In this document: piece by piece, positions 26,133 to 54,800 of the stretch | How the letters are laid out: each line of letters starts with the position of its first letter | Numbering within the stretch: the first letter of the stretch is position 1 | Assembly: GCA_037447655.1 (NCBI GenBank) | Contig: JBBHKE010000026.1 | Coordinates: 301,297 to 365,296, forward strand | From: Zygnema cylindricum | Taxonomy: Eukaryota; Streptophyta; Zygnematophyceae; Zygnematales; Zygnemataceae | Direction of reading: 5' to 3' | DNA: 64,000 bases | Notes under the pieces: generated by a model | Seen by the model: the letters and a program-made list of their open reading frames with translations, nothing else | What the model was told of the DNA's origin: nothing | The model's database searches: none | Position numbers and translations under genes: made by a program

Positions 26133-26149
26133 CGTCCTCTCCTGAATTC

Positions 26150-26890
26150 TATCTCGTTACTTGTGTTGCTACAAGTGCCTTCTTCTTTTCGTTGGCCAAT
26201 CTAACGGTTTGCCTCCTTAAATCTCATCTCTGTCAACTTTGTACACTCCACCATATAGTGTCCCGGCTTCTTACAAAAATGGCAAAGGCTCTTTGGATGC
26301 CTATATCCGGATCCATCTGATTAATTTTCTCTCCCTCCTCCTTCAAATTTATATAAAGTTTTTTGGAATCATGATTCGTCAAATCAGTTCCAACAACCAA
26401 GGCTTGACCACTCTTTCCTCCTTTTCGAATCTCAATTGTGCTTTCCCGAACCAAAATCATCCCAACAACCGAGTTCCAAATCTATTAATTATTTGGCAAA
26501 TCTTAAACCTTGTTAATGATGTTCTTATGATCAGCTGGCAGTTCTTTAGCAAAGTATTCACCTTTTCTTTCTTTGTCTCCTATTTTATAGCACTCGCCAA
26601 CTCCAAAAACAATCCACACAAGTCATTGCAAAAATCAAGCATTTTTCCTCCTTTTAAAACATATGTTTGCACCTTCTAAACAACAAGCTTCTACGGTTGA
26701 ATCGTACCACTCTTGTCAATATTTAGAAGAGCCTCCCATAGATAAGCCGCCTTGTCTACAAAAAGGTGAGGTGTAACAAATGCTATAGTGAGACGCTCGA
26801 GAAAAAAATGAGTTGCCACTCTGTTGTTGATGTCCCACATTTCAGTATCATTTGCCTCCGTTTTGTGAACAGCCACTATCATTATTGATT
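26150..26890 (-). pseudogene. copia gag with zinc knuckle
   Basis: On the minus strand the CCHC knuckle is seen as CHFCKKPGHYMVEC (about 26245-26290), with C-x2-C-x4-H-x4-C spacing intact. The ORF at 26691-26882 represents an upstream piece of gag. Stops lie between these parts. Confidence 0.75.
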
Positions 26891-29085: not shown

Positions 29086-31310
29086 CTGCACACAGTGAAA
29101 AGAATAAGCACTAATGTTTTCGGTACTTCTTCGTCCAAGAATAAATGAAGACTTCGACAAATTTATATAATATCCGTGTGGTATAAATTTTAGCAAATGT
29201 TTTTTTAAATGTTTGTCGTTGGCACACAAATGGACAAATGGATTCATAGAAACAAAAGTGCGCAAGGCTGCGCAACCTTCCAAATTGAAGCCAATTGAGA
29301 TTTGATTATTGAACGAAGACACAACAAATATTATTGACTGAATTCAACAAATTCAAGCAAGTTTAAAAATACTTCGTTTAGTGGGGTGTTTTTTGGGGAT
29401 GTAATAACCAACTTGAGTTGTCATATGCACTGTATGGTTTAAACAAGACATTCGGAAAATTGATTTTCCATTCACACTAGGATTTGATAATAACAACAGA
29501 TAAGCGTTGAACTTTGTCTTTTTATGCAATATAATTGGTCTTTTTAGTCGGGACACTATGGTAAACTAAAGTTCATGTTGTGTCATTTCTGATCGACGAA
29601 TGTCACCACTGACAAGTTTTCAGAAGGAACAAAACGTTTTAAAATAGATAAACCTGAGAAAATTATTCAATATGTTTTTGAATATTAAGAAATGAATTTG
29701 AGATCAATTTTTTTGTTTATTCACTTCATGACGGAAAGATTATGTAATCAATTGCAAACCTATGTGACACAAGAATCATTTAGCATACTTGAAGCTGTTT
29801 AAACTTGCAGTAATTCTGCAGTTTTCTTTAAATATTTTTTAGAATATTTTCATCAATTCACTAAACATGTGCAAAGAAACAACCGTACCACAAAAATGAT
29901 CGGCTTTTCCTTTCAAATGCACTATTTATGGGGAAAGAGATATCATAAAAAACCAAAATAACATGACAAAATATATTTTTAAAGAAAGAAAAATGAGAAG
30001 GATTCCATAAAATTGGTTCTCGAGAGTGTTTGCAATCCATCATTAAGTTTTGTTTTCCCAAATCACGTTCCAGAATTTCCAAAACTTTCCCACATGCCAT
30101 TTGTAGAATTCAAAAAGTGTGCAATCGGCGAAAAGTGCAAATTTTCCTTGTATCTCTAGAATGAGTATGGTTTCTTTGACTTGTGGCATTCCCAATAAAT
30201 CCAATTTTTTTTTGGGTCATTAACCTTGATGTGAACTATTCCATATCATAAAACGTGAACAGTGACTCATAGCTGTACTTGTCCTCTTTTTGAATTTGAA
30301 CTCGAATCTGGTACAAGCCTCCCGTTGAGCTTAGCTACATTTATGAGTCATTTACATTCACTCCACTCCCAAATTTCCAAAAGGTTTTTCATTTGCACTT
30401 GCTCGCATCTGGAACGCAAATTGTTTTTCTAGTCGCCCACACTTTTTGAAGTGCAGCTCGTGTGCACGCAAACTTGTTCAATTTTTTAAACGTTTCCTTT
30501 TTTGTAAAACATTTCGACAGGCTGACGCAAGAGTCAGTAGCCTTCATGGTGTACACGTTTCCTTTTAGACATGCTTTCGAATTGGCTCCCATATCATCCG
30601 CACCGAGACAAACCTGCGATTGCAGTGTTGTTGTTAAGCTTATGGTTAGCAAAAACATTAGTGATAAAAAAAAGGCAATTGAATATAAGATCAGGTCTTC
30701 ATGAGAACTTTCGATGGTTAGAAGACAAGAAGATATGAGATTTTCCCTTTGTATTGGAATTGTACATTTAACCTGATTTAATATTCTTTTCCATAATAGG
30801 ACGAGTTGCATAAGACGTAATTATTGGAACAATACTCGTAACATTATCCTTCTCAATGACAAAATCGGATTTACATCAATATTGTTGGTTTATATACCAT
30901 GGAATTAGTTGTGACATATAGAGTCAGGTATTCAAAGTAAGAAGTAAATGACATGTATCATAATTACAGGAATTATAATAAAATTGGATTAGTTTATATG
31001 GTGTTAAACACAAACTACATGTTTTAATGTAATGCCGACGATCAGGTAAACAGTGCCTGATTTAACATTTTGACCTTTAGGCTAAAAGATAAAACATTGA
31101 TTGTAGTTTAGTTAGTTAAATCAATAAATTGACACGATCTTTTTTTGTTTGAAAATTATTTAAAAAAAGAAAACCTAATTTATAAGTGCTTGGTTTATGG
31201 AAACATTGACACAATTTTTTGAAACGGAAGCAAACGAAATTTCATGGCAAAGATGCGTAAATGAAGTTGTACAAAAAAAGTGTTGTAAACAAGAAAGACC
31301 ACGCTATACA
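29085..31310. repeat. tandem duplication, unit 1 (about 2.2 kb)
   Basis: Collinear with 31330-33530 along its whole length, from AGAATAAGCAC near 29102 and ATGTTTTCGGTACTTCTTCG to GTACAAAAAAAGTGTTGTAAAC near 31290. Differences are scattered substitutions and small indels. Each unit carries one LysM-like ORF on the minus strand. Exact borders are approximate. Confidence 0.9.
30389..30811 (-). CDS. small secreted Cys-rich LysM-like protein, copy 1
   Basis: Single open frame of up to 140 codons. The middle has a hydrophobic stretch (LILYSIAFFLSLMFLLTISL) that would act as a signal peptide or anchor. After it come about 65 residues with seven Cys and a LysM-like pattern: NVYTMKATDSCVSLSKCF, then FKKLNKFAC and TICVP, comparable with Y-x-V-x-x-G-D-S-C and the N-x-x-x-C positions of LysM modules. 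The start is uncertain: the first Met gives a 45-residue lead before the hydrophobic stretch, while MFLLT gives a short signal peptide. A near-identical copy lies 2.2 kb away and the LysM-bearing peptidase gene follows on the same strand. Chitin or glycan binding is inferred, not shown. Confidence 0.6.
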   Translation of the reverse strand: MQLVLLWKRILNQVKCTIPIQRENLISSCLLTIESSHEDLILYSIAFFLSLMFLLTISLTTTLQSQVCLGADDMGANSKACLKGNVYTMKATDSCVSLSKCFTKKETFKKLNKFACTRAALQKVWATRKTICVPDASKCK

Positions 31311-31329
31311 CCTCTGACTGAGACTGAGA

Positions 31330-33530
31330 TATATTTGCACACAACGAAAGAATAAGCACAATGTTTTCGGTACTTCTTCGTACAAGAACAAACTAAGACT
31401 TCGACAAATTTATAAAATTTTCGTGTGGTATAGATTTAAGCAAATGTTTTTTTGAATATTTGTCTTCGGCACACTAATGGATAAATGGATTTATAGAAAC
31501 AAAAGTGTGCAACCTTCCAAATTGAAACCAATTGAGATTTAATTATTGAACGAAGACACAACAAATATTATCGACTGAATTCAACAAATTCAAGCAAGTT
31601 TACCAATACTTCATTTAGTGGGGTGTTTTTTGGGATGCAATAACTAAATTGAGTTGTCATATGTACTGTATGGTTTAATAAAGACATTTGGAAAATTTAC
31701 TTTCCATTCACACTAGGATTTGATAATAACAACACAGATAAACGTTAAACTTTATAGTTTTATGAAATGTTATTGGTCTTTTCAGTCGGGAAACTATGTT
31801 AAATTAAATTTCATGTTGTGTCATTTAAGATCGACGAATGTCACCGCTGACAAGTTTTCAGAAGGAACTAAACGTTTAAAAATAGGTAAACATGAGAAAT
31901 TATTCCATATGTTTTTCAATAATAAAAAATGAATTTGCCATTAAATTTATTCACTTCATGACGGAAAGATTATGTAATCAATTGCAAACGTATTCGACAC
32001 AAGAATCATTTAGCATACTTGAAGCTGTTTAAACTTGCAGTACTTCCGCAGTTTTCTTTAAATATTTCTTAGAAGATGTTCATCATTTAGTAAACATATG
32101 CAAAGAAAAAACCATACCACAAAAAATGACAAACTTTTCCTTTCGAATGCACTATCAATGGGGAAAAAGATATCACAAAAAACCAAAATAGCATGACAAC
32201 ATATCTTTTCAAAGAAAGAAAAATGATAAGGATTCCATATAATTGGTTCTCGAGAGTGTTTGCAATCCATCATTAAATTTTGTTTTCCCAAGTAAGCCTT
32301 TCCCTCATGCCATTTGTAGAATTCAAAAAGTGTGCAATCGGCGAGAAGTGCAATTTTTTCTTGTATCTCTGATATGATTATGTTTTCCCTGACTTGTGGC
32401 ATTCCCAATAAATCCATTTTTTTTTGGTGTCGTTAACCTTGATATGAACGATTCCATATCATAAGACGTGAACAGTGACTCATAGTTGTAGTTGTCCTCT
32501 TTTTTGATTTGAACTCGAATCTGGTACAAGCCTCGTGTTAGCTTAGCTACATTTATGAGTCATTTACATTCACTCCACACCCGAATTTCAAGAGGTTTTT
32601 CATTTGCACTTGCTCGAATCTGGAACGCAAATTGTTTTTCCAGTCGACCACACTTTTCGAAGTGCAGCTCGTGTGCACGCAAACTTGTTCAATTTTTTAA
32701 ACTTTTCCTTTTTTGTAAAACATTTCGACAGGCTGACGCAAGAGTCAGTAGCCTTCAAAGTGTACATGTTTCCTTTTAGACATGCTTTTGAATTGGCTCC
32801 CATATCATCCGCACCCAGACAAACCTGCGATTGCAGTGTTGTTGTTAAGCATATGGTTAGCAAAAACATTAGTGATAAAAAAAAAGCAATTGAATATAAG
32901 ATCAGGTCTTCATGAGTCGGACTTTTGATGGTTAGAAGACAAGAAGATATGAGATTTTCCCTTTGTATTGGAATGGTACATTTAACCTGATTTAATATTC
33001 TTTTCCATAATAGGACAAGTTGCATAAGACGTGATTATTGGAACAATATCCTTCTCAATGAAAAAATCGGATTTACATCAATATTGTTGGTTTATATACC
33101 ATGGAATTGGTTGTGACATATAGAGTCAGGTATTCAGCGGTAAGAAGTAAATGACATGTATCATAATTCTAGGAATTATAATAAAATTGGATTAGTTTAT
33201 ATGGTGTAAAACACAAACTACATGTTTTAATGTAATGCCGACGATCAGGTAAACAGTGCATGATTTAACATTTTGACCTCTTGGCTAAAAGATAAAACAT
33301 TGATTGTAGTTTAGTTAGTTAAATCAATAAATTGACACGATCTTTTTTTGTTTTTAAAATTATTTAAAAAAAGAAAACCTAATTTATAAGTGCTTGGTTT
33401 ATGGAAACATTGACACATTTTTTTAAAACGGAAGCAGACGAAATTTCATGGCAAAGATGCGTAAATGAAGTTGTACAAAAAAAGTGTTGTAAACATAAGT
33501 ATACGAGGAAGAAAGACCACGCTAAACACT
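31330..33530. repeat. tandem duplication, unit 2 (about 2.2 kb)
   Basis: Second unit of the direct duplication, ending next to the last exon of the peptidase gene. A minus-strand ORF at 32058-32417 in this unit has a frame-broken counterpart in unit 1. Its short shared part (ADCTLFEFYKWH) is conserved but has no function I recognise. Confidence 0.88.
32600..33025 (-). CDS. small secreted Cys-rich LysM-like protein, copy 2
   Basis: 141 codons, almost identical to the ORF at 30389-30811, with one in-frame codon insertion before HEDLIL and about a dozen substitutions. All seven cysteines after the hydrophobic stretch are kept, and so is the LysM-like stretch MYTLKATDSCVSLSKCF. Both copies staying open despite indels elsewhere in the duplicated unit suggests that the ORF is under selection. 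It lies 0.55 kb beyond the stop of the LysM exon at 33579-33833 and could have come from a LysM exon of that gene. Confidence 0.6.
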   Translation of the reverse strand: MQLVLLWKRILNQVKCTIPIQRENLISSCLLTIKSPTHEDLILYSIAFFLSLMFLLTICLTTTLQSQVCLGADDMGANSKACLKGNMYTLKATDSCVSLSKCFTKKEKFKKLNKFACTRAALRKVWSTGKTICVPDSSKCK

Positions 33531-33578
33531 TCACTTATCTTTATGCGTGATTTCCTCTACATTCAAAAATCGCAAAAT

Positions 33579-33833
33579 TCATTTGATGGTTAAGTAATCT
33601 TCACAACAGTTCGACTGGGTGTCAAAAAAACACACCTGCTGTCCAATGTTCCCGATTCCGCTAGAAATAAAGAGCAGTCGTCCACAGTAAACTCCAGGAT
33701 TTAAGGTATAGAAGAGACGAATATCGCCATCCAATTGGCTGCTGATAATGGAGAGACACGATTCGTCCTCTTTCACTTCGTATGGCCACGTGCAAGGTCC
33801 GAAGGAGGGGAGTGGCCCCCTTTCTATGCACAC
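33579..33833 (-). CDS. last exon: LysM module 3 and C-terminus
   Basis: Phase-0 entry after TTTTCAG; 84 codons and a TGA stop. It completes module 2 with VCIERG, then has a LysM module starting CTWPYEVKEDESCLSI and ending in YTLNPGVYCGRLLF and QQVCF, the Y-x-V, D-x-C, N-P-x-V-x-C and final V-C positions of LysM. The tail NCCEDYLTIK has a Cys pair and no membrane anchor. Confidence 0.82.
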   Translation of the reverse strand: MCIERGPLPSFGPCTWPYEVKEDESCLSIISSQLDGDIRLFYTLNPGVYCGRLLFISSGIGNIGQQVCFFDTQSNCCEDYLTIK

Positions 33834-36800
33834 CTGAAAATTGTTACACCGTCAACCAGACATAGTGCGACTGGACTGAGACACCTTAAAAATTTAAACT
33901 TTGGGCCATATCATGTCCGCAGAAAATGTGTAAACAGGGCCTTTGTGGACCATTGCAAATTTAACGAGCGTAATCACATAGGTCATTTCTAATTTTTGTA
34001 AAAGTCAACAAACTAGCTTCTGCGGCCTTTGTGAATAATGGTGCTCATTGAGAGACCTCTCATATTTAAAATGATTGTGAAAAGATTTAAGAAATTTAAT
34101 TAGTTCACAGGAATGAAAAAAAAATCAAATGGGGAACTACAATGCATCTCCCAAAAAAAGACAGGGGACATCACCTCTGATTTTTATAACATGTTACTTG
34201 AAGAGACAAAACATAGACATATAGAATTCTGTTGAACAAAGGAATTCGAAAGAATTTCGTGTAAGAAGAGTATTTTTGTTTTTTGGTTGACGAAACTTAT
34301 GATTACCGTTTCGTATATTGTTAGAATGAAATTTTTAGTTACGGAAGGACGCACCTGCTGAAACGGCCTAAGTTGAAAGCAGTCTAAGTCAACATTAGGA
34401 GAATTTGGTCCCGAAAGTGAATCGATCTCAAACATACTGGCGATTGTGGCACACGTGTCACCCTGAAACAAACCAAAAAAGCACGATGTACAGACCATCA
34501 TACGATTCAATTGATGCAATAGAAAGCTTAGCCGAAGGCAACTATCATTAAAATGGAAAAACTGAAAAAATTAAATCACTTAATGACCTCCACGTTGTAG
34601 TCAACAGCACAGTATACTGAAAAAGCAAAAAAACATTTTTTCATTTTTTTTTCATTAATGAACTTTTAATTGGGAAGGGAAAGTGTATCAAAACCTCATT
34701 GACGGCATAGAGGAGAGAACAGTTGTTGGAGGTTGTCACATTGACTCTCGTGTTAGGAAATAGTGGAACAGAGCAGTCAATACCCTGTCACAGAATTGAG
34801 TAAACTGGCATTACACGAGGAAGTAATCTGACAGAGATAACGACTGCAGAAAAGAAAACAACGTATTTATTTTATCCAAAAAAAAAATAACGTGATTAGC
34901 ACCAAATAAAACTCAGTATAGTTATTAAGCAGAAAAATCAATAAAAAAGTGAATGTACGGTGGTAAAGATGTCAATCATGACGCAGTACAGTATGCATTG
35001 GCTGACCATCACCTTATTCTGTGTCAAAAACACATCCTTGTTGATGCCGTAAATGAGATAAATGTCATAACAGGTCACGTTCACTCCACTTGGCACCACG
35101 AAGTACTTCAGGGCACTCCCAATGGTACCATCTGGCCATTGTGAAAACCATTCATTATTATTTTTAGCAGTCATGTTCGCAAATGTATCATGAAATTAAA
35201 CAAAATAGTTAAGCAACTTTATGGATCTTTGCAAAGGTAGTTTTATGTCCACAACTAGTATGTACATCTTCTAGATTTTTACCTGCTACGCAAGTGAGCG
35301 TGCCACTTGGAGAGTCCAACACATAGCCGGGCGGGCAAATGCACACATAAGTTCCGGGTGGAAAAGAAGAGTCCAAGCAGGTGCCCACTCCACATGGATT
35401 TTGCGGACTGAAGGTACACGGGGAAGCTGCCACGTGGTCAAGATCATAAAGCATCAAAACTAGGACAAAGTAAGCTTAAAATCAATACAACATATACCAA
35501 CATTATGCAGTCCATTACCACTAACAAGCCACTAACAAGAATAGAGCTGCTCGATTTTGCACCTGGAGCGCAGGTCTGCGAGCCGTCCGTATTATTGACA
35601 GCCACAAATGTATCCGTACATTGGCAAAGATTGGTGCTTCCCATTGGAATGCATACACCATTTCCGCATGGGTTGGAGCGTCCTGGGCCGTATTCTGTTT
35701 TTAAAACTTTTTTTGCAAAGTTGACGGTGTTGCAAGGATCATTGGCTGGAAAGATACATCATTTCCCAACATTCCCACCATTTCCTAGCATGACATAAGT
35801 CCCATGTAGTTGATTTACGGTTATTATATTTGCTAAGGACAAGAGAATTGTAATGGTATGCACTTAATCTAAGAGAAAAATCAAAACCTAGTTTGGAATA
35901 GGATGAAAAATACAAATTTAATTTCTGCAACTCAGGGTGGATTATTGATCGCAAACTCTGTGGTTTTGGTCCATCCACTTGGTTTTCAAAAACACTCTAG
36001 AAATAGTCTTATATCTAAAATACTCGCTCTCTCTTGTACATGTTAAGGAGAAACGTCTTGACAAAATAGTGTTTGAAAAACTAAGTAGATCACGGTTACT
36101 TTTTCAAGAGTAAATCGTTTTTTTCTTCAACGCATATGATTCAACACATAATATGCAAAAATACTTTTGAACTGCGTGATTGTAGGTGCTAGATGAGTTG
36201 CTACCGAGGCTTAAACAAAAGCCATAAAGGAAAATTCTGTGGTGTTCAATGATGTGTAAGAACATAGTTCAATGACGAGCGCTTACAAGGGGATTGTATT
36301 ATCGGCACAAGTGCCGGAAGGCTATTTATTCCACAGATTCCAAGTCCTCCAGTAATCTTGATTCGCATGTAGCCATTTTCTCCCCAATTGGTTCCCCACG
36401 AGTTACGAAGGACCCAACAAGGTGGTGAAGATGTGAGGTCGTACCCGACAACGACCACACTATGGTCCACACCGCTTGAGAAGCACTCATCATCATCAAA
36501 TATTCCCTTCACAACATCAAGCAAATCAATATTTTCCCATTCATTTCCTTGCCTATTGCCAAGGCACATTTCTAAAAATAGTAGTACGTTGTTTTTGAGA
36601 AAGGTTTTGACTAAGAAGCAATCAAATAAAAATTATGGGGCAAATTTAGAAGACCTCATCCCCTTGAACACTATGCTTGGGTCCAAGCATTGGTCCTTGA
36701 AAACCACGAATGCCTCCAAATACGCTAAAGTTTTGCTCTTAAATGAAACCCGTCAATTCAATGAAACATCTTCACCTGTTATCAACAACATGCTTCTCAT

Positions 36801-39800
36801 GCTGCAAATGGATGCTTAGAAATTCAAACACATTTCTTTTAGGTTCTTACACCATATCAATAATATTAGCGACTACTTCACAAACTCACATTTTTGTAAT
36901 TTTTGAAATTGTATTCAATGTTGACGATAGCGGGTTGCTGTTGAAGCGCTAAAAGGAGACCAATCCAACCGTGGGACTGAACTTCCTCAAAAGAGAGAAT
37001 ATGTGTGCTGCTGGTGGGCTGCAACAAATCAAAATGGAAGAATATATTTTAAGAACGAGATGTTAAATTTTGTTGAAAAAGCCTGGATGTCTTTATAAGC
37101 TTATTGCATGAAATTTAATTGCACACTACTCCATAAGAGTTGAGTTAAATCTACAACATTTTTGACCCAAAGTAGCAAAGATTTTTTTTGCGGTTTTTAT
37201 CAGCCTGTTTTAAACCAAACATTAATTTGCCCATGTTTTCAGTTTGTTGTCATCCATTATGTTTACTAATGTGAATGTGTGGGAAAAATGGAAAGGTAAT
37301 TTTTGAACCTAGACATGGCAAAAAGCTATTTTAAAAATGAAGTAACTCAAACATAAAGCAACCTTTTTTAATGAGGCAACGTCAATTCGGACAGGGCCAA
37401 CTTTCAATATTTTGGCTGAAATTAATGTACTTTTATGGGGCTAGGCATTCAAAGAAGATTATTGCATATATTTCTCTTTACTAAATATAGAAGTATAATT
37501 TCTCAACATTCTCTTTTACTTTCAAGTAAAGACGCAATAGGAACTTGCGGAACTTGTTCCAAGATAATTATATCACCTGGCAATATGAGAGAGATCATTT
37601 TTTCCATTTGAAAGTTGACATACAACTATAGCATATGAAGCTCATGTTTGTGCTTCCACAAAAAGATTTTGATTTGTGTTTTATTTCTTCATAACTTAGA
37701 AGATTTCTGGGAACAACTTGAAGAATATGGTACTGTTTTATGGTTTTCTTTGACCTTTTTGAAAGTTTCTATTCCATTAATTTTCAACTTTGTAGCCATC
37801 ATTTTTTTCCGAAAATCAGGGAATAGAATTTTCGTCTATGCCTAGTGTAGGTTCATTCTAATGTTCGCTGAATGAGGTACATCACTCTATAGAAATAGTA
37901 TTCCTAAAGTTCCAAAACTAGCTGGAGAACAAAGAGTATCTATAAAACCGTATCACACCTTGAAGTTATAACAATTATTTGAGCAGTCCAATAGTACCTC
38001 ACCAATCATATTGTGATTCTAATTTTTCCGACCTTTAGTGCCTTTGTTAATTAGTAAATAAACAGATAGATATTCAGGAAAAGGCATCAACATACTTTTA
38101 TCCTCAAAACTTATCACTGTAAAGACATCATACCTTGGGACCAACGCAACTGTTCGGACCCACATAAGATTCCTTGAAAATGAGGTTGTTGGCCGCAGCA
38201 TAATCAAGGGCGTCTGCTGGTGAACCACCATCGCCACAACTTTTATTTTTTCCGGAACAAACAAGAAATTGTTCTTCTGGGATACTCGGAACTGGTGCTT
38301 GGCCAGCATTTGCAATGAAGAAAGCGCTTTCAATGGCTGAAGTTGTAGAAAACACCCAGCAAGTATCTATATGGAAACAAAAGTAGAGATAAAGGGACGA
38401 TGGTTAAATACCCAGGTCGTTTACGCAATCAGTCTATCTATTCTACACTGCAAATCAACGGTGGTGTTTACAACCGTATGGTTAGTCACCTAAACTAGGT
38501 GATTTTTCTTAAGCTCTTGGATTATGAAGCGATGAACCTGAAATTACAAATTATCAATATGTGTGTACATATATATATATCATTTTATAATCTATGATGG
38601 GAAGCAGAGTTTGGGGTTATAGGTTCAGGCTAATCTTTTTCTTGTTGAATAAACTGAGGTTTCCACATTTTATCTCCAGCCGGTGTTCAGGAACCAACTA
38701 TAAGTCTTGAGCTAGCAGCAAACAAACAGTGAATTACACCTGGGGAATATATGTGCCAAATCAAGACTTACTTACATAGTCAGTAACTTAGGGTTAATTA
38801 GATATACTAAAAATCAGAACAATCCACATTTGTCTTAAAGTTTCCACTATCATGTAGCCGTATATACATAAACCATACAGATCCGTCCTGTTTAATTTCT
38901 TTGAGGAAGCTTTTTTATTTAGCATATGTTTCTAGACTGTACTATGGTTAACATCCGTGATTAGAAAATTGGAACGTTTAACATGCCACTTGCAAAAGTA
39001 AATATGTGAATTGTCAACAGATAATTACTTGAGAAACATCCAAATGATATTGTTGTTACAGCATGTTTTACTGACAATTGTATAAGGTTTAAACAAATGA
39101 CCACAAGATCTAGGATAAAAAAAAATAACCTTTGACGATTGCATGTTGGTGTGTATGCACTCTTTGTATGCAATTTATAATTTATGCAGCTTTGGGTTTG
39201 CAAACCCCTCCCAAATTACAGGCTGACTTAAATGCGAAAAATTCTATTAAACCCAATTCGTGTTGACATACTGCACGTTTCCTGATCTCTTATCGCTTGC
39301 AACGCCTTGGCGTTGACCCATTTCCAGCTGGTAGCAACCATCCAAGAAGGAGTCGTCTCTTCGTTCAAGTACAAAAATCCTGCACTCAAATAACGGAAGT
39401 ACTTATTTTTCCTTGATGGCGCAGACGATTGAGCGTCAATATATCCAAGGCCTCGGTTTCCTGCATCCAAAAACACAGAACATGCAGGTTAACAATTAGA
39501 AATGTGGTTGCAAAGAGAAACTGGTTACGAGTATAATTTTTTTTTTCTATTACTTTTTGGAGAGTATGGACAACGAATTGAAGACGGCAGTTTTTTGCAT
39601 ACTAGAAAAGAATAATGAAAATACTGAATATTTTTACAATAAAACTTTGATGCATAGATACACAACTAGACATTTATAGGGATTTCTATTTTGGGAAACA
39701 TCAATTTATGCAAAAAATAGAATGAACGCAAAGCTCAACACCAAAGTCCATGTTTTCTTTCGGCTAAAGGCTTCATCATAGTGCCTCACGTGCATGTATT

Positions 39801-42800
39801 CAAATGATAAGAGCACGGGCCACCTGAACAGTAATTTGTCTAAATTCCCCAATTTCATAAATCATCAATACAGTTGATATGTGAAAATGACAGGGAGATG
39901 AAAAGAGTTTAGAATATACAGATGCATTAAAGAGAAAGCGGAAGGTAGATAACAGGAATATTTACTGCAGAGAAGGTAAGGGAATGGAATGGGATGTACA
40001 ATACACAAAACCTGCAATGCTAAAAATAATGTGGAAAGAGTAAATTAGCGAAAAAGGGAACCGTTTCACAAAAAAAAAATATATCAGAAAGAAAAATGAA
40101 GAGGAAGGTAAAAGAAAGCGATGAAGACACATCTCACCAAAGCTACAGGTGCTTAAATCCTCATTGCTATTGTATCCTAGATCGCATACGCAAGTTAAGT
40201 TACTATCACAAATTCCATGGCCTCCACATGCTCCCATTGGTTGCTTAGCATTGCAAAAGCCAAGACAGTCCATGGGGTCCTTTTGGTCTTCCTTCTCGCA
40301 ACCAAACTGGGGGGATTCCAAATCGAAACAATTTGACCCCAATGAGGTTTCATTACATGCTTTCATTCCATTGATGGTGATTGATGGCGTTCCGGACAAG
40401 AAATTGTACGAGAGGTCCACTCCAGGCTTTAAAAGCGTGGTAAAGTGGAGATTAACCATGCCTGTGAAAAAGTTATCATTTAATTTCCTGAAAAAGGAAA
40501 TAAGGTTTTATTTTTAGGAAAGGAGACAAAGAAATTAATGTTATATCTAACAAATGAGATGAATAATAATCTACAAAGAGGTGATTAGCAGCTATCTAAA
40601 CACTCCATATCATAATTTCAATCTCCCATGTTAGGTAGGGTATGACAATTGACGCCACATTGTGTAACAACTCTGATGTTGTAACAAGAAGGAGATGGAA
40701 AAATGTGTTGCCAAAAAGATGCATATTGGTTATGAATGGGATGAAATTTCATTCCTGAAGTGTTTCAAAGGGGTTGAGAGACGAACAAATTGGAAAGAGT
40801 ACGTATATTTGCCAGCGACGCAGGTATATTTCCTCTGAATTGATTTTTGTAGAGGTACCTGTCACACCCATGTCATATTCCAAAAGTGCAAAAAAAGTCC
40901 ATCCAGAATACGTTAATCACGAATGTTACCACTCAAGGACATTTGTGCCTTCATTCAACAAGCATAAAAGGGTGTAATTTTTGGGCGAAGAACCAACAAG
41001 GTCTCAATCAATAATTTGGTTTTCCACAACAACCGTTGTGCTCTTTTCGTCATGCATGATGGAAAGGATAAAAGATACTAGTTGAAAACAGTGGCAATTT
41101 CATGTCCCCACAGAAAGGAAACTTTCTAGTGGTGGATAAATTCTCTGCCCGAATATATATGCACATAAGAGTTGTGATTCGTACAAGATAAGAGACTTAA
41201 GAGGCTATTGCTGAATTGATGTTCTTGTCGGTACTTTGATGTTTAACATGTTTTATCTGAATGAGTCATGATCGCGTGGGCTTCAGTACATTTTGTAAAA
41301 TTTTGAGTTCATTTACGCTGAGTGATCCATGAACGATGTGCACGAAATTTTACTTATCATGGTCCCAACGCGTAAGCAGGTATGAAAAATGCCCATTACT
41401 TGGACCTTATTTGACACGAAACTTGATTGGTGTTAAGGAGAGAACATACATCTGTCGAAGACTACGCAAATTTGCAACACTTTCGGGAATGCTTACAAGT
41501 TTATTCCTATCCAAGAACCTGCAAAACACGTCCCAAAAGAAGAATTTGATGGGTTATATTAGTTGATTAAAATCAACAATTGCTAGCCTGTAGCTTCCTA
41601 GGGAATTTATCATCTTAAGATACCAGAATCAAATATATTTATCTGCTTTGCCTAAATACCTCCATCACTTGCACATTACAGATCTAGATGAAAATCATGC
41701 AATGTCTAGCTGAAAAGAATTAGCCAATGGCTTACGTCACATAAATGTGAAAGTGAAAAAAATTACCGACATACAAAAAAATTCAGATAATAGAGGAAAA
41801 AAAACTAATTTGCCTTAGAATATCCACAAAATAAATCCTCAAAATTAGTTAACTGTACTTAAAGTCTTGGGAAATAATTGAAAAAGGCATGGAAAACGCA
41901 AAATTAAAAAGGAACGCTATCCCTTGCATTTGATGGCTGAGATGATAGAGTGTCGCACATACAAAACATTGAAGCAATAGAGCTGCGAAGAGTGGTCATT
42001 TTGACTATGGGACACTCACAATTCCTGGAGGATAAAAAGATTTCCAATGCTGGCGGGAATGGCACCAGTCAATTGATTGGATGATAATATCCTACAAGTC
42101 CCAAATTAGTAAATTAGAAGCAGCAAAGGTGTCCAAATTCGTAGGCTTAAACAGAAAATCATAAAATCGCAAGAATGATTTAGTGTTAAAAAAAAAGAGG
42201 CAAATTGGTACGATTCCATTTCGCCCGAATGGAAATATCAAACTTATGCCAATACGATGATCTTTAGTGTATTCATCATTTAAATGTTTTGACATGGACA
42301 GTAATATGAATATGGATAAATGGAAGCTAAAAATAACTTAATTTATCGAGACTATGGAAAGAAACTCCTCACAAATTTTGGAGCCTTGTGCAATTTCCAA
42401 TGGAAAAGGGAATGCTGCCATTCAACTGGTTTCTTGACAAATCTCTGAAAGCGCAAAACCAAACACAAAAGCGTTCTACGTTAGTTCCCGGGTGAAATCC
42501 AAGACATGACGTTCCTCAATAATCGTGGAATTATCTCTGGGCAGCTCACAAAGTAGGCTAAATAAAAAACAATAGCCAGCAAGGGTGACAAATCTTGTTT
42601 CCAACAAAAAAGAGAGACATCGTGGAAGAGGCTCTTTAATTGTGGAAAACTGATACATTCAAATGTTAATCACATGCAGGTTGGCCTTGTCTCGTGAAAG
42701 AACTAAATCACTTGAAGAAGAGTGCAGTTAATACATTTTTTGCAGATAGACAATACTATGAAGTTTAACCCCTACTAGGTATAAGGTGTAACTTGCAACA

Positions 42801-45800
42801 TGAATACTAACTTTGTGTCGTAGGTGGCATTTAATAGTCCTAAAACATTTGGAGGAATCAACGCTATCACTAGGGCATAAATATTGCCGTGTAGCCATCC
42901 TACTGGGAGACGCATTCAGTTATCCCGTGCCATGATTTTGATTTTGTTCATATTTTTAAGGTGTTTAATTTGGGGAACAAGAAAGTTAAATTAATCACAG
43001 ACAAACGAAAAAAAATTGGCTGACATTAGAACACAAGTCACAGTCAATTTGAAAATGATATAATAATCATCCTTTTTTATCTTCAAAAAAAGTTGAATAG
43101 CCGAATAAAAAATTCCTTGTATGCAGTCAAATTGGTCATATTGTAAACTTTAAGTTCTTTTAGACTTTAAAATGTATCACCAGGTGTAGTTTAAAAAAGG
43201 CCACAATATTATTAGGATATGTGTTTCAAGCAGTTTCACGAAATATGAAATTTCTCGAAAAGGAAGGGGAGGGAGGAGGAAGGTATGCAAGGGAGGAAAG
43301 GGGTGAGAGGGGAGAAAAGATGGAAAAGTGGGAGAGAGAAAAAGATCAGGAGTGTAGAAATAAAAAAAAACCCACAAGAATGATTTAATCTGGTGTGAAT
43401 ATTCCGATATTTTGTTTGTTTTTTTTTTTTTTGTACTTTTTTATGTCATCTCACCAAAACTTGAATTTTACCCATAAAATTGGCGAGAATGGATCAAGTG
43501 GCCTTTTAAAATAGTTTCAATATTGAAAATTTATAAAAAGATGATCCATTTTGAATGTGCAAACTAGTGCAAACATACAACCAGAAGAGACAAAAGTAAT
43601 CCTGTAAGAAAAAAATGACCAAAGGGAAAGGCAAGATGTGTTAAAAAAAATCAATAGGTTTGAAGCCAATGTGAACTCAGATTATGTCCATCATCCTATT
43701 TAGATGTAAAGCTCTCTGTTGCATTGAAAAACGCTGAACAGTGAGCATTTGTAGAACTGCAAATAAAAACAAGCATAAAGAATGAATCTCACAACTTCTC
43801 GAGATTTTTGAGGTTTCCAATGGAAGACGGTATGTTCCCCGTAAAAATATTGCTCGCTAAGTTCCTGAAAAAGAAAAAAAACAAGCCATAACATAAAAAT
43901 GACATGCCATGATTTAGTCTTCACTTTCAGATTTTTTGGAACGCCAACACTTCATTGCTTTCTTAGGAGCCTAAAGTTTCAAACTTCGTTGCCCAGTTTG
44001 TTGTTTTTGTATGAGCGAAGTGTTTTTAGTCTGTTTGAGAAAAAAACGTGATTGATGAGGATTTCTCCATGATTACTCTAAATATCCTCACTCTTCCAAT
44101 CAGCTCTGCACATTTCTTCAAGCGAACTGAACATTTTCGAACATGATTATTGTCAATGATGATTCGTGCAGTTGAAATAATTTGTTTGCTTCCTGCCAAC
44201 AATAGACACATAGGGTACCTTTTCTAATCAAAAACACTGAAGTTATGACCGTCAGATGGCCAGCATCCAAACTGAATTCAAACTTTAAACAAACAAACCA
44301 TCCAAATATTTACTATATAATCCTTTGCATACAAGCGTGTCTATGAGCGAGACAACCATTACTTTGGTAAGCCTTGTGCCGACCGAGCAAAAGGATCAAG
44401 TGCAATGTAGCCTTTCACACATCTACAACTAAGCCCACATACAGAAGACAAGATCGTCATCCAGATCTATAAGGACATGCAGATAAAGATGAAGCCCTCA
44501 CAATTCTTGAAGGCTTGTGAGGAGTCCTATAGAAGGGGAAATGGTCCCGATAAGGTCCAGTCCAACCAATGAACTGCGTCAACGATTACTTTTTTGTTAA
44601 AATTTTGCATGAACTTAAAAAAAAAAACACAACGTTATCATTATACCCCTAGATATCATAATCTAAGCAGGAGAAACAAGCCCACAAGTTAAAAAGGACA
44701 TTGTCTTATTTACATTAGGTCATGTTTACAAAATCGCGGCGTGTTGAAGCAAAAAAACCTAAATAGTTGTGATGGTTGTCCTTGGTGTTGTTTATCCCGT
44801 TTACAAGAAAGAATATTTAACATTCTAGCTTTTAGGAAAAAGAATAGGATTAAGGATTAAAAAAATCAGCTTTAAGCTCACATTCTTTTCACTTGAAACC
44901 TGTCGTTGCATCGTATACCATCCCACCCACAAAAGCTTGATCCATTCTTCCATCTTGCCAAAAACCTCGTTGGATCGCTTGTGATGGCAGCTTTTACATC
45001 TAGGAGGATGAGACCTGTGTTTAAAGTGAATAAAGTATAGCACCAAAGACATCATAAACCCACGCGCAGAGTATTAATGATGTTATAAATTTTAACACAA
45101 GGAATTCATAACAAGGTGCTTTTATAGACTAAAAAAACCGCAATCTGAGTTGAATTCCCCAACCTCTGTAGCAAAATATAATGAAGAAAGTCTTCGGTTT
45201 TTTGATTGAAAAAAATGCCGAGGTCATTCGCTCATTACGGTGGAAGCATTTTACGCTAACATTACATCTAAGTTGCAAGGTCAATTGAAGAGTGCCTGTT
45301 TTCTGCTTTGGATAATATAGGGAAGTCAAGATATAAACTCAATATGAAAGAGTCGTCATACATAGCCATTTATTTCTTATCCACGCATATTATTGTCAAT
45401 TGATCGACAGACAAGGTTATATCATGCTAACAGTGTTTCGTTTTGTCACGATTTGCATTTAAACACCAATTTAACCTTTCGGTTATAAAAGAAAAGAACA
45501 TATGTTTATGTTATAGTGATTTTTAACGTGGTTTCTAGATTTTGAAAGTTTATGTTGGTGGTTACCGATCAAATTTTATGAAATCAGTGTACCTGTATAA
45601 AACTGTACAAAATCCCTGTCACTTCACATGTGAGCAACACATTTGAAGTTTAATGATGATGGGAATTAAAAAGAAAAATGAAAAAAAAAAACGAGTAGTG
45701 TATCCATGCTTGCATTAAGCTTTTATTTCTCCATTGTGTATAAAATCATCGCATTGTTGTAAGGTGAAAGAAAATTGCATAAAAATAAACATGTTCAAGT

Positions 45801-48800
45801 CTTTTTTTTTAAATATAAAGACCATTTAGATCATTTTCTGAATGCTCAAAACTATCGACCCAAAACCAGCTCTTTATTGCAAAAATCTGAAAACAAATCG
45901 TTCGGGTGTACATAGTCCTTTCTAAGAAATGGTTTTGACGATTTTTTTTTTTTTTTTTTTCCAGATTTCGTAATTACACGCTAATAATAGTGTAAGGTGG
46001 TTAACAAGGGACCTAATCTGATTAACTCTAGATTTTGCAAACCCTAATTGTTGTTTGGGCTTCACCTTCAGATATGGGAGGACTTGGTGGCGTTGGGTTG
46101 GGTGCAATAGGTGACGGAGGAAGTGAAGGCAGGGGAGGTGGAGGGAAAGGAGGTGGGAGAGGAAAAGGTGGGAGAACGGGGGGTGGAGGAGGGGGTGAAC
46201 GAAGGAGTGGGGGAGGGGATGAAGGAGGTGGTAGGGTGTGAGCGAAAGGTGGAGGGTGGAAGAGAGTGGGGGGTGGAGCGATGGAGGTGGTGAAGGATTT
46301 CAATGGAGGTGGATGGAAGGTGGAAGGAGGAGAGAGGGAAGGAGGAGAGAGAAGGAGGGGATAGAGGGAGAAGTGGAAAGGAATGGAATGTTTCGATGGT
46401 GAATGGAAAGGAAGAGGTGAACTCAGTGGAGGTAGTGGATATAATGCTGGAAACGAAAACATGTGGCTTTTTAGTATTCAAACAGCATTGTTTTTTAATG
46501 CCTTATATCCCTTTTTTAGGTTAACCATATTGCTCAAAAATAAACCAATTATGATATTTTTTCATCATCTTCCATTGGTTGCCAAAATCAAAATCCTTAC
46601 CAAAATCTTAGCAAATTTGTGCGATGAAATAGAGATGCTTAAATATCAGGTCCCAATTAAAAACAATTAATTTGAGACAAATACACTTATGCATATATCA
46701 TCACAATCCATTTTTGCCACAAGAAGACTTACATTTGCAAGTGTATTTGCTTGCTATATTACTGTAGCCTTGGTTGCAAGCACATGTACGTGTCGTCCCA
46801 TCTGTGCTATTGGAGCAAATACCACTCCCCCCACAAGGCCCTCCGGCTTGGGTCGCATTGCAAAACCCTTCACAATCACTTCTATTGCGTTGATCGTTGG
46901 ATTTGCATCCGGATGGGAGACTCGAGGCAAAAAGGCAATTTGCAACCAATTCCCCACATGATGGATGTCCGCTGACTTTTATAATGGGCCCAGTAAAATA
47001 ATTGTTGGAAATGTTACTGTTTTATAAAATCGTCAATGGAAATAAAAAAAAGGTTAGTTACATTTTACTATGCGGCAATTTTTACACTCTTTAATTGGAT
47101 GAAGGAAGTGAAAAGAAGGAAATAAATTCTAGTTTTTATAGTTTACTCCTTTATGTTTAGCAATGGGTGGGAGGATATGGTGCCAAAAGGGGGAAGGGAA
47201 GTGGCGCTTATATGGTCCACACATCTTTTATTTAGGAAAAAAAAGTGTATTTGCGGACTCTTAGAATATGAGGGCATTAAGGAAGATCCTTTTATTAGTG
47301 GCTCTTCCCTTTTAAAACGTGGCAAGGGTCAATATTACTATTTTTTTTATTTGGAAAGCCTTCTAGTTTATATGACTCTAAACAAGACAAATTATTTAAA
47401 AAAAAGTCAAAAAGTCAATCAATATTAAATAAAAGCAAATGTAAAACATAAATTTATATTTAACTTTAGAAATGGGATTCAAAACAACGATTAAACAGGT
47501 AGTATAAGTTGGAAATGTGAGCGGGCGAGTGAGAGGTTGAAGCTCCCTATTTTATTATTTGTATTTTCTATATTTTTGGCTTCGTGTTTCATTTTTTTTT
47601 TTTAAGTTGGAGGATATTCTATGATGTAAATTCACAAAATTTTAAAATTTGGCGCTCCTTTCTTTTACCACAATAATTTTTTTCAGTTCTGTTTTTTTAC
47701 AAAAGAACAAACTTCCGGATTTTTTTAATATCTTGCTATAACCTTAGCACTTAACGTGAATTTCTATTTTTTTTTTGTAATCTTGAAAGAAAATCGTACA
47801 CCGTACACCTTACTTGTTTCTTATATATTTGAAATTTTACCCTCTTTATTACTCACCCTGTTCTCCACCCTACTTTTGCTCTCCCTTCCTTTCTCTTCTC
47901 TTCCCCGCTCCCTACCTCCTCTTCCTCCCTCCATTCACCGCTTCCCTCCGCTCCCCATACCTCCCCCCTTTTCTTGCAATCTCCACTTCCCCCCTCTTCC
48001 CTCCCCACTTTTCCCCTCCGTTCCCCTCCCCTCCTCTCCCCTCCCCTCATCTCCCCTCCCCTCCCCTCTCCTCCAGTCCCCTCTTCCCTTCCCTCACCTC
48101 TCTTTTCTTTCCCCTCAACGCTACTCCTCTATCCTCCCCTCACCCCTCCTATTCCTCCCCTTCCACGAGCCTCCTCTCCCCTTTCTTCCCTTCCCTCATA
48201 TTCCTTTCTTTTCATTGACATTCCTCACTCCAGTCTGTTAGCATTCCGCCTTCAAAAGAAAGAAATGGAGAAAAAAATTGTAGAGGTGAGAGGCTCTACA
48301 TCTCCCTCTTCCTCGCGCTCTCTCTCCTCCTCCCTCTCCCTTTCCCTATCTTTTTCCCTCTCCCTCTTCCTCCCCCTACCTTCTCTCTTTTTCTATCTTT
48401 ATCCCTTTCCCTCTCCCTCTCTCTCACGCTCTCCCTTTCCTCTCCCCTCCCTCTCCCCCTCCCTTTCCACCTTCCTCTCCCTCTCTTTCCCTCCCTCACC
48501 TCTAACCCTCCCTCTCCCTCTCCCTCTACTTCTTCCTTATCTTCCTTCCCCCTCACTTTGTTTCGTTCTCTCTTTCCTTATCTCTATCTATCTCTTCCTC
48601 TCTCCTCTCTTTCTCTCTCCCTCTCTCTCGTTGTCTCTCCCATTTTTTATTTTTTTTGTTTTTCAATTTCTCTACCTTTTTTTTGTTTTTTTTAAATTAT
48701 CTAGTTGTTACACCAATTTTTAATTATGTCTACCTTGTGACGGGACCCTGCCCCTCTTCCTCTTCCCTGCTCTACACCCTTTCCTCCCCCCCTCTTATAC

Positions 48801-51800: not shown

Positions 51801-54800
51801 TCTGAATAAAACTAACTTGAGCAAAAATGCTGATTATAATAAAAAAAGACTTACTAAAACAAATCCTGGCTTGAGTCAAATGTCGCAAGCCTCTGGCATC
51901 ATTTCGCATTGCAATAGTGACATTAACAAAAAATAAAAATGTGTTTGCTACATATCTCAAGAACTACCCTAGTTGAATATGAAATATATCTCAATAATCC
52001 ATATCCACTCCCCAGATTAATGAGAAAGAATGCCAAATCTATGCATTTGCAAGACAAGGGATTCAGAGAAAAGTAAGAATGAATTGAAGGTTGAAGTAAA
52101 CTCTTAATCTTTGAGTTTCAGCCTTGTAAAAGAGGAGATAAAACTCAGAAGGAGTTCTATCTAAGCATTTCCTAGCCATATGTAACTTAGAGTGCTAAGA
52201 GAGTACCTTTGGCCTAATCACAAGCCTCACAACGAATCCAACGAATGGGGATATATCTCAATAACTATTCCAATCAAACATGGAATTCTCCTAAGACGAG
52301 GTTGCATTGCAGCACACTTACTTTGATTCACAACACCTCACATTTTTTTCTCTTCCTTCTATTTTCAAAAAAAAAAGACAAACTATCTGTCCATCACAGA
52401 TTAATGACGAAGGGCAGCTAGGCTTGACCATTTATGGAAAATTTGACTTTTTGTAAAAGTTGAATTTGCAATGGATATGAATTGTTTCAAAATTGTAATA
52501 TATTTTTTTTTGATTCAGAATAACATCCTTATTTTTTTTTCGTTTTTTTTTTGTTTTGTTTTGCACCCCCATTCGGAAAATATAATTGCTCATAACGACA
52601 AAGTAGATCAGATTATCAAATACCTTTTTTTTTTAATACAATAACTTATTCATAAATAAAAATTCTTTCCAGGAGGCAAACAGCAATTAAAAACTTGAAA
52701 AATGTCTATTCCTCAAATCCAATTCACAAAATGTGTACTGTTGAAAATTTTCCTTCAATTGCATTCCAAAATCTTCCAATAAAGCTTCTGATTTCTCTCT
52801 CTCTCCCTTTCGTTCCCTCCCTCCCTCCCCTCCCCTTCCCTCCTCTCCCTTCCCCTCCAATCCCCTCCCCTCCCATCCCCTCCCTTCCCCTCCCCTCCCC
52901 TCTCCCACATTCCCTCCCCTCCCTTGCCTTTTTCCGCGAGAAATGGGGAGTGTTTGAAAAAATGGGAGAAAAATGAGAGGGTTAGACGGAGGGGTGGGCG
53001 ATTGGGGGCTGGCAGGGTAGTCTAGAGGCAACAAAAAGGGTCGGGAAAAAATTTCGTAAGAGGCATTCAAGACGGGGAAAGGGGGGGCGGGGGGACGTGG
53101 GGGGAAAGGAGGGAAGGGCAAATACAAGTATTTTTTTGGTTTTCTTTTCGATTATTATTGTGGTTAATTCGAGTTTTTTTTTTTTTTGGGTACGGTATTT
53201 TTTCTGTATTTTATAAGCAAACAAGGGGTAAAAGTCTACAATTCTCTAAACTCTCTCCCCGATACACCCCTCCTTTGTTTTCTCTCTATTAGATTGTTTT
53301 CAAATAAGTTTTATGTGCCACCAACAAATTTTCATAATTTGACGTGCATGTTTTTATAGTAATGGCCTTACAACGATTGGAGTTTTTTGAGTTGACCGAT
53401 GGACGATGGAATGCTTCCACTCAACTGGTTGTTAGCCAGATTTCTGTAACGCCATCCAGCACATCAACCCCCCCCCTCTTCTAAATGCCTTCTAGTTTTC
53501 TTTACCGAGGTGTAAAAAACTACAAAGAAAACAATGATTGTGTACTCTTGTTAGGTACATTTATAAGGCTCTAATCCAACGTCACCTTGACGTAATGACC
53601 ATAATCTTTGATGAATTTTCAATTGTTAACAATGGGCTTGACACCCTCACACCCTTTTTTTTTCTATAAATGAAAATGTGGAACACAAGTTTGCGTGATA
53701 GGTTTCTCGGTGGCTAATGTTTTCATTTTGAGCGAGGTTCATTTACATCCTTTATTTAATGTTTTTGTGTTTAAATTCCATTCATTTATCCAGCGATATT
53801 CCTCACTTATTGTTTTTTACTTTCTAAAAAACAATTTTAAAGCTGAAAGATACACAATGTGCTATCAAATTTTCAGAAAACAAAACTTCTTTGTTGCTTA
53901 AATTTTCTTTATTTAGTGTTTCAACTTTCTAATGATTTATTTTGGCGATTATATTAAATAAATTAAAAGTTGTCATTGTTTTGGGTCCGTATTGTCCGCA
54001 TTGGGGTGTTTTAGAAAATAGTGGGTTTCCATAATTTTTTCTTTTCGGGTGTTACTTTTGTAGGTTAAGTATTGGTTTGGCGGAGAGGGAGGAATACGTG
54101 GGCAGTGCTTGGGGCAAAGGGACAAAATGATCAACTCCTCAACCACTCTAAATAAGGTGCTGAATCAACCCTTCCCCTCTCTCCACTTGACCTCCTCTTT
54201 CCCCCGTTTCCATCCCACTTTCCCTCTTTTTTCCCCTCATCCTCCCCTTGGATTTAAATTGTGCTGTATATTATAGAAAAGTCGAGCATTGTATTTTTGT
54301 TTGCGTATGGATTATCTACCTCCAACAAATTTTTATGATTTAATCTGCAATTTTTCGTATAATTTAGTCTTACAAGTCTTTGAGGTTTGTGAGTTGACCG
54401 ATGGACGATGGAATGCTTCCACTCAACTGGTTGTTATATAGCCATCTGTAACACCAACAAACACATCAACCCCCTGTCTCTTAATGCCTTCTAGTTTTGT
54501 GGACCGAGATATACTAAACTTAAGAAGAAAATGATTATGTAATCTTGGTATGTATATGTTTACGGCTCTAATCCACCATCGCTTTCTTAAGGACGGATAA
54601 CCATAATTTATGATGAATTTCCACTTGTAAATTATAGACTTGATGCCTGTAAACCCTTTTTTTTACAAATCGAAATATAAAATCCAAGCCTAGTGAAAGG
54701 TTTCGAGGTGCTTAATGTTCGCATGTTTTAACGAAGTTTATTGAATTCCTTTTATTTTGGTCCAAATTAAATTTCATTTATTTTTCTAAAATATTTTGAG

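Follow-up and report, generated by a model that had tools for sequence, protein, structure and literature searches.

A papain-like cysteine protease joined to LRR, EGF and LysM modules in Zygnema cylindricum, and the gene family to which it belongs

The minus strand of a 64,000-nucleotide stretch of the Zygnema cylindricum genome (contig JBBHKE010000026.1; hereafter the window) encodes leucine-rich repeats (LRR), EGF-like domains, a papain-like peptidase and LysM modules one after the other. Do these modules belong to a single protein, where does its gene begin, and what might such a protein do?

Exons and domains of the reading frame

Between positions 45014 and 32600 we assembled 19 minus-strand exons, spliced in phase, into a frame of 915 codons with the order LRRNT, LRR7, EGF, papain-like peptidase, EGF, EGF and LysM4. 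The introns are all GT-AG and their phases agree. With these domains found, the first-pass annotation, which had read LRRNT/LRR, EGF, papain-like peptidase, two EGF domains and LysM on the minus strand in this order, was right in outline. The LRRNT exon (44882..45014, acceptor phase 1) is followed by LRR exons at 44502..44573, 43793..43864, 42373..42444, 42020..42091, 41450..41518 and 40787..40858, the last with the weak donor GTTCGT, and by an exon for LRR, cap and EGF-like domain (40138..40487). Most LRR repeats are encoded by 72-nt phase-2 exons. Exon 39272..39460 encodes the pre-protease segment (KYFRYLSAGF, which fits the conserved FRxxSxGF) and the beginning of the papain domain, including the oxyanion-hole Gln; the catalytic Cys (CNTCW) lies in 38134..38366, the middle of the domain in 36890..37018 and the catalytic His (VDHSVVVVGY) and Asn (RNSWG) in 36287..36506. 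Two EGF-like exons (35563..35745 and 35283..35426) lead to the LysM part, in which 35013..35131 encodes the first part of LysM 1, 34695..34784 (weak donor GTTTTG) its end and the start of LysM 2, 34355..34462 LysM 2, 33636..33833 LysM 3 and 32600..32824 LysM 4 with the stop codon. This final module is the counterpart of the C-terminal LysM of the relative P0002. The last exon is tandemly duplicated at this locus.

The stop near 33579, which had been taken to close about 883 codons with three LysM modules, proved to be intronic; the frame runs on into exon 32824-32600 and thereby reaches 915 codons and four LysM modules. Within the protease, a candidate exon 37418-37363 broke the phase, and joining 38134 directly to 37018 fits papain better. 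An acceptor at 36577 likewise broke the phase, and 36506 fits.

In Pfam searches the peptidase is unambiguous (Peptidase_C1, 136.3 bits against a cut-off of 20.7, E = 2.1e-39, profile positions 3-215 of 220). LRRNT_2 (PF08263) scored 30.0 bits (E = 6.5e-7), LRR_8 54.8 bits (E = 7.9e-15) and EGF 20.3 bits (E = 7e-4), slightly below its cut-off of 21.5. The tail, searched alone, matched LysM in two stretches (35.6 bits, cut-off 20.9, E = 9e-9); two LysM modules are thus given by Pfam and the remaining two were assigned from their likeness to relatives. The equivalents of Gln19, Cys25, His159 and Asn175 are all present (RDQETCNTCW, VDHSVVVVGY, RNSWG), and at the level of the sequence the catalytic set is intact. 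The I29 propeptide (PF08246) found no match in the window protein at E <= 1. It is also absent from the scanned relatives (sets of 6 and 8, plus P0021) at E <= 0.01 or 0.001, and it was found in 20 of the 21 non-family proteins among the matches listed. Granulin (PF00396) had no Pfam match in the window protein, and no kinase family matched the 915-codon protein or the extended model described below. In a hydropathy scan the top 19-residue value outside the first 35 residues is 1.67.

The catalytic domain with its Gln-Cys-His-Asn set is that of the C1A papain-like proteases, and the nearest solved sequences are actinidin, ervatamin and ficin. Unlike in these enzymes, no I29 was found, LRR-EGF stands before the protease and EGF-EGF-LysM4 after it, and there is no granulin, the domain which C1A proteases of the RD21 type carry at their C-terminus. 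The LRRNT_2 cap and the plant-type repeats are those of plant LRR receptor kinases and receptor-like proteins of the GSO1 and FLS2 type, and plant LRR receptor kinases are also the best solved LRR matches. Here, however, the kinase is missing, the output would be a protease, and by hydropathy no stretch beyond the signal peptide clearly qualifies as membrane-spanning. Tandem Cys-containing LysM modules are shared with the chitinase LysM and LysM receptors, but here they are joined C-terminally to a protease via two EGF domains.

Where the gene begins

The gene had been thought to start at 45014. This position is a splice acceptor, and the open frame preceding it has no ATG. Most likely the gene includes an added LRR-EGF block (block 1) and has its true start outside the window, at 66677 in window numbering. 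The extended model has 28 exons and about 1221 residues, with all exons in phase and the sole stop at the end, and reads signal peptide, LRRNT-LRR6-EGF, LRRNT-LRR7-EGF, papain-like peptidase, EGF, EGF, LysM4. Past the window end, in locus L029, lie the minus-strand exons for the signal peptide (66677-66587), the LRRNT (66462-66351; assigned by eye, with no Pfam match) and the first two LRR exons (65685-65614 and 64959-64888). The block continues on the same strand inside the window with LRR exons at 57573..57644, 56693..56764, 54374..54445 and 53375..53443, the latter modelled with 69 nt where an alternative of 72 nt to 53372 has the better donor, and is completed by an exon for an LRR cap and an EGF-like domain (46733..47016). 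This exon has the phase-1 donor GTAAGT and is most likely spliced onto the LRRNT exon at 45014.

The alternative is that block 1, from the signal peptide to the EGF at 46733, and the part from 45014 to 32600 are two genes, the latter with an unrecognised first exon of its own. The relatives P0002, P0003 and P0020 indeed carry a single LRR-EGF block ahead of the protease, and such a first exon could escape detection because signal peptides diverge fast. Yet the interval from 46740 to 45014 holds no candidate (0) for a signal-peptide exon, that is, a hydrophobic ATG exon with a phase-1 donor. The sister loci C20a and C20b repeat the two-block layout. C20a has an in-frame ATG directly 5′ of its second LRRNT exon, as two genes would allow, which is absent from the window gene and from C20b; in addition, the 12 kb fetched upstream of the block 1 EGF exon of C20b contain no signal exon. 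On the other hand, the first-exon candidates in C20a (8) and C20b (4) are unlike each other. The phase-1 donor of the block 1 EGF exon is common to all three copies, and therefore this exon is not a last exon. A head duplication of the same kind is found in P0021, which has two legume lectins. At three places on C20 a signal-peptide exon with a GTAAGT donor is followed by a similar LRRNT exon; the GC content over 500 bases from these three starts is 0.54-0.59, and at 45014 it is 0.37. All in all we regard two genes as unlikely, though worth keeping in mind, and continue with the single 28-exon gene.

Sister loci, selective constraint and relatives

The fusion is not a one-off but belongs to a large family with many copies in this genome. 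By eye we counted about 106 of 150 scored genome places that match the His/Asn protease exon at E <= 2.9e-19, and the copies from this genome form a clade of their own in the tree (support 97/99). Some family places have stops inside the match, part of which may be due to reading past exon ends.

The EGF-protease-EGF-EGF exon order is kept in all ten fetched sister loci, and the Cys-Trp of the active site is read in all ten. LysM exons then follow in nine. Those of C20a, which are LysM-like, lie further downstream (C20:266547 and 264654). Compared with C20b, the most complete sister, dN/dS over 902 codons, block 1 left out, is 0.28 (0.21-0.35) against 1.27 and 1.25 in frame-shift controls. The value is 0.31 (0.19-0.48) for the LRR part, 0.15 (0.07-0.29) for the protease, 0.05 (0.01-0.12) for the EGF pair and 0.50 (0.29-0.78) for LysM. 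For the EGF ahead of the peptidase (0.49, 0.16-1.84) and for the pre-protease segment (0.29, 0.05-1.14), the sequence is too short for constraint to be established. Judged from its codon substitutions, the gene is under selective constraint. Given the exon order in ten of ten sister loci and the in-frame ratio of 0.28 against 1.27 and 1.25, the fusion goes beyond chance. That unrelated neighbour genes or a decayed copy were read as one frame is very improbable and largely refuted, for although the last exon is duplicated here and stops occur at some family places, 28 in-phase exons end in a single stop, the shifted frames give ratios above 1 and transcripts marked complete carry the same order.

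These EukProt transcripts, P0002, P0020 and P0022, share the domain order of the fusion. Together with the conserved sister loci they make a split into separate genes unlikely, and the earlier proposal of one protein with LRR, EGF, an active-site-complete papain domain and LysM is well supported. P0002, P0003, P0020, P0022 and P0024 (EukProt, Mesotaenium, Closterium) belong to the same family with the order LRR-(EGF)-C1-EGF-EGF-LysM, but have one LRR-EGF block where two are modelled here. Among the matches listed, the full core is confined to relatives from Closterium, Mesotaenium and EukProt transcriptomes; the Closterium relative P0001 is distant (37% identity over 71%). The heads of the relatives vary and consist of LRR, legume lectin, both or none. 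In 24 of the 85 family rows examined the catalytic Cys is replaced by Ser, which is its sole replacement. Thus, proteolysis seems to be dispensable in some members.

A 2019 lectin survey covering algae and plants already mentions the pairing of a C1A peptidase and LysM, which, according to the accessible part of that survey, is not retained in vascular plants (PMC6362431). The same part does not describe the LRR-EGF and legume-lectin heads, the EGF pair, the family size or the change from Cys to Ser. The literature searched, mostly outside subscription journals, holds no paper on an LRR-EGF-protease-EGF-EGF-LysM family, so the remark that no described protein has such an order stands for that literature, although unnamed database proteins do have it. 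The family is apparently undescribed; the C1A-LysM pairing itself was already known.

Possible role of the protein

The first-pass annotation had conjectured a wall-localised or apoplastic protease aimed at or triggered by glycans, possibly for immunity or wall remodelling. We suggest that the protein could act as follows. It is probably secreted, as the signal peptide indicates, and would be exported to the extracellular matrix. There the LysM tail would hold it on GlcNAc-containing glycans, and the LRR head, or the legume-lectin head of some relatives, would bind a peptide or glycan. Once bound, the head may position or gate the peptidase, which would then cut nearby proteins. Glycan binding, proteolysis and gating by the head are what we infer from the modules. 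An AlphaFold model computed for P0002 is confident in the LRR part alone (pLDDT 56.1 on average, about 25 in the protease) and was therefore set aside for the question of gating. As role we propose a recognition-guided defence against microbes or parasites with chitin or peptidoglycan, and next to it conjugation or wall remodelling. The complete reading, namely one gene for a secreted, LRR-guided and LysM-anchored multi-module cysteine protease with about 100 related loci and defence as its most likely role, is one that we believe about as strongly as we doubt it.

On the LRR concave residues positive selection was not seen, omega being 0.25 there and 0.41 for the remainder. LysM evolves faster than the protease in three of the four sister pairs having LysM data, but in the pair C1414/C1786 it is no faster (0.16, protease 0.23). 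These values therefore do not establish diversifying recognition. The LRR cap has a non-significant dN/dS of 1.96 in C1414/C1786 (interval 0.72-7.88).

Conjugation requires recognition and wall lysis, and the protein might link the recognition of species or mating type with a locally confined lysis of the conjugating cells' wall or matrix. The recognition heads are diverse, and the family members of named source are, among the matches listed, all from conjugating algae. A protease, however, cuts proteins, whereas the walls of conjugating algae are mostly polysaccharide, and about 100 related loci seem more than a mating system needs; we consider this role rather unlikely. It is doubtful, too, that the protein simply digests extracellular material or turns over the matrix in a general way, LRR and LysM being no more than wall anchors, for which LRR-extensins offer an analogy. 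The strong constraint on protease and EGF pair would agree with it, as would the concave face free of positive selection, but the exchange of LRR and legume lectin, the doubled heads and the recurrent change from Cys to Ser suggest more than plain digestion.

Returning to the guided protease, we consider, as a tentative and less probable reading, that conjugating algae evolved a system outside the cell, large and combinatorial, whose papain-type core carries the heads that land plants place on kinases (LRR, legume lectin, LysM). Heads would be swapped or duplicated, and the change from Cys to Ser would yield active enzymes next to Ser-bearing partners or decoys, possibly as an immune or mating recognition repertoire that signals or acts by proteolysis. 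Conjugating algae are closely related to land plants. If proteases bear receptor-type ectodomains in these algae, with about 100 related loci in a single genome, then combining LRR, lectin and LysM heads with kinases would not be the only route of the plant lineage. The family provides a concrete and testable gene set for studying immunity, conjugation or the matrix in algae, and the recurrent change from Cys to Ser a natural experiment on the roles of enzyme and pseudoenzyme. As to the tail, the LysM part of the relative P0003 is nearest to the LysM of chitinase A.

The gene model and its 5′ end

Rebuilt from the sequence, the window gene comprises 19 minus-strand exons from 45014 to 32600, which join in phase to 915 codons and a stop. 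The introns are GT-AG throughout, two donors being weak (GTTCGT and GTTTTG). Each domain named in the first-pass annotation, that is LRRNT/LRR, EGF, papain-like peptidase, EGFs and LysM, was found in this gene. Its limits, however, had to be moved at both ends. The stop previously placed near 33579, which gave about 883 codons and three LysM modules, is intronic and lies downstream of exon 33833-33636; the frame continues into exon 32824-32600 (minus strand), which carries a fourth LysM and the stop codon. Position 45014, formerly the gene boundary, is a splice acceptor, and the N-terminus was absent from the earlier model. The last exon (LysM4) is duplicated in tandem together with its flanks (29465-31314 against 31701-33532; 1872 bp aligned, 90.3% identical). 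The extra LysM4-type exon, at about 30612-30390, has an open frame and might be used as an alternative last exon.

A scan upstream of 45014 revealed a second LRR-EGF block on the same strand, with LRR exons starting at 57644, 56764, 54445 and 53443; its EGF exon (47016-46733) ends in the phase-1 donor GTAAGT. Between this EGF exon and 45014 no candidate first exon with a hydrophobic start was found. Past the end of the window, at C20:367973 (window coordinate 66677), the contig has an exon that looks like a textbook signal peptide; an LRRNT-like exon and two more LRR exons come after it. Splicing all these exons together gives a 28-exon model that runs from an ATG to a TGA without an internal stop and encodes 1221 residues (1222 if the donor at 53372 is used instead). 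We infer that the upstream block is spliced to the LRRNT-LRR-EGF block from 45014 in one gene, because the phase fits, no other start was found and the two-block layout is repeated in three copies. Two observations count against the join: no signal-peptide exon of this type was found in the 12 kb before the upstream EGF exon of the sister copy C20b, and the tandem sister C20a has an in-frame ATG immediately before its second LRRNT exon, one that neither the window gene nor C20b has.

Similar signal-peptide and LRRNT exons are present at C20:309293 and C20:295337, both upstream of C20a. Over 500 bases from the three signal-peptide starts the GC content is 0.54-0.59, compared with 0.37 at 45014. 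The start at C20:309293 (window 7997-7907, minus strand, plus LRRNT and an LRR exon at 5035-4964) falls between the window gene and the neighbouring sister copy; it could belong to an additional gene or be a 5′ end copied by duplication. Open frames that, judged by eye, resemble pieces of Copia-type retrotransposons occur at 9934-10659 (plus), 25623-26156 (minus) and 60376-60924 (minus), the last within an intron of the upstream block. Long polypyrimidine/polypurine stretches occur at 47.8-49.1 kb, with strong GC skew, and at 55.0-55.6 kb.

Relatives, their heads and the catalytic residue

Protein searches returned 18 proteins with the window protein as query, 16 with its relative P0002 and 698 with a profile; in all three, scoring covered a fraction of the candidates or a restricted set of words. 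Among the best 120 of the 698, the precomputed Pfam list shows no I29 propeptide for 99, of which by name 82 are from Closterium, 11 from Mesotaenium and 6 are EukProt transcripts (counted by eye). The other 21, land plants and Chlamydomonas among them, cover about one third of the query, and 20 carry I29 (by eye). No named member with the full core from land plants or other algae was present in these best 120. Three EukProt entries flagged as complete ORFs, P0002, P0020 and P0022, combine LRR, EGF, protease, EGF pair and LysM in a single mRNA and begin, judged by eye, with a signal-peptide-like start. Their identity of about 40% and the tree suggest that they come from species other than that of the window. 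For the window genome itself, the nearest relatives suggest the class Zygnematophyceae.

The family shares the protease-EGF-EGF core under variable heads: LRR-EGF in P0002, P0003 and P0020, one legume lectin in P0019 and two in P0021, LRR plus legume lectin in P0025-P0027, and no head in P0004, P0007 and P0008. Closterium P0009 and P0030 have C-terminal calcium-binding EF-hands, which may be true fusions or joins made in gene prediction.

The catalytic position varies as well. For a quick tree we used 88 protease domains, namely 84 of the 111 family proteins (the remaining 27 were too incomplete), the window gene and three ordinary plant proteases. In the 85 family rows this position is Cys in 61 and Ser in 24, with no other residue; 12 rows overlooked by the automatic pattern were checked by eye and all have Cys. 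Serine is found in Closterium and Mesotaenium relatives (e.g. P0001, P0004, P0027, P0037, P0112), and at least seven changes between the two residues are needed on the tree, whose branches are long, whose forks are partly open and whose input includes Closterium gene models that may have errors. In the window genome the window gene and all 10 sister copies examined have Cys. A smaller, careful tree (36 rows) unites these 11 copies in a single clade (97/99). Thus, as far as sampled, the expansion belongs to the window genome itself.

The combination of C1A peptidase and LysM already appears in a survey of plant lectins, described there as not retained in vascular plants (PMC6362431). The Zygnema genome paper reports 209 domain combinations unique to Zygnematophyceae, and the words "LysM" and "papain" are absent from its main text (PMC11096116). 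Our literature search found no paper on an LRR- or lectin-headed protease family.

Selective constraint and possible role

We compared 10 sister loci of the window genome. The LRR-cap/EGF exon, four protease exons and two further EGF exons have the same order in all of them. LysM exons follow clearly in eight within the stretches examined; those of C20a lie further downstream, and in C2140 none was found in the 3 kb past the last EGF exon. A fourth LysM is seen in C20b, C845, C1505 and C1662. An LRRNT exon is recognizable in C20a, C20b, C2140, C1958 and C845; in the other five it was not found within the stretch examined, and the LRR exons are more dispersed.

Against C20b, dN/dS is 0.28 (0.21-0.35; 902 codons of the 19 exons from 45014 to 32600). 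By part it is 0.31 for the LRRs, 0.15 for the protease, 0.05 for the EGF pair and 0.50 for LysM, every interval lying below 1. The intervals span 1 for two short stretches: the EGF that precedes the protease (0.49; 0.16-1.84) and, with 0.29 (0.05-1.14), the pre-protease segment. With the reading frame shifted by one or two bases, the same exons give 1.27 and 1.25, and three further pairs give 0.25-0.31 in frame versus 0.98-1.80 out of frame.

The papain domain has a complete catalytic set and, among solved sequences, comes nearest to plant papain-type enzymes. No I29 propeptide precedes it, and in 45 of the 111 family proteins an FRxxSxGF segment stands directly before the protease (a rough pattern with at least one false match). 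We propose that the head together with this segment could replace the I29 propeptide in controlling the enzyme. The protein is probably secreted, judging from the signal peptide; the 28-exon model contains 62 Cys and 16 N-glycosylation sequons, and it lacks a second strong hydrophobic stretch. Its LRRs are similar to plant receptor ectodomains, with inflated E-values for these repeats. The LysM tail of P0003, used as query in place of that of the window gene, is closest to the LysM of chitinase A.

LysM modules target chitin and peptidoglycan. Defence would be our first choice for a role, because these targets are signatures of microbes and because, in three of four sister pairs, the LysM part diverges faster than the protease. 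However, the fourth pair does not follow this pattern, and the concave LRR residues have no excess of amino-acid change.

Copies in the genome

With an EGF-LysM query 52 places match the first EGF exon (115 of 725 candidates scored). From a Peptidase_C1 search (150 of 303 candidates scored) we chose by eye 136 matches to the protease His/Asn exon, and 59 of them have an EGF or LysM match nearby. This is a lower bound, because all three unpaired loci sampled have EGF-like exons after the protease (by eye, two are divergent and one is apparently decaying) and because C1380:89903 and C1505, though scored as unpaired, are family members on direct comparison. A search with the His/Asn exon found 106 places at E ≤ 2.9e-19 and at least 51% identity (by eye; 150 of 162 candidates scored). 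Working genes are fewer, since some pairs (C364/C825, for example) may represent two haplotypes of one locus and stops interrupt several places. In the divergent loci L040 and L041 the protease is followed by EGF-like exons, and in L040 by a proline-rich stretch too, which suggests further subfamilies.
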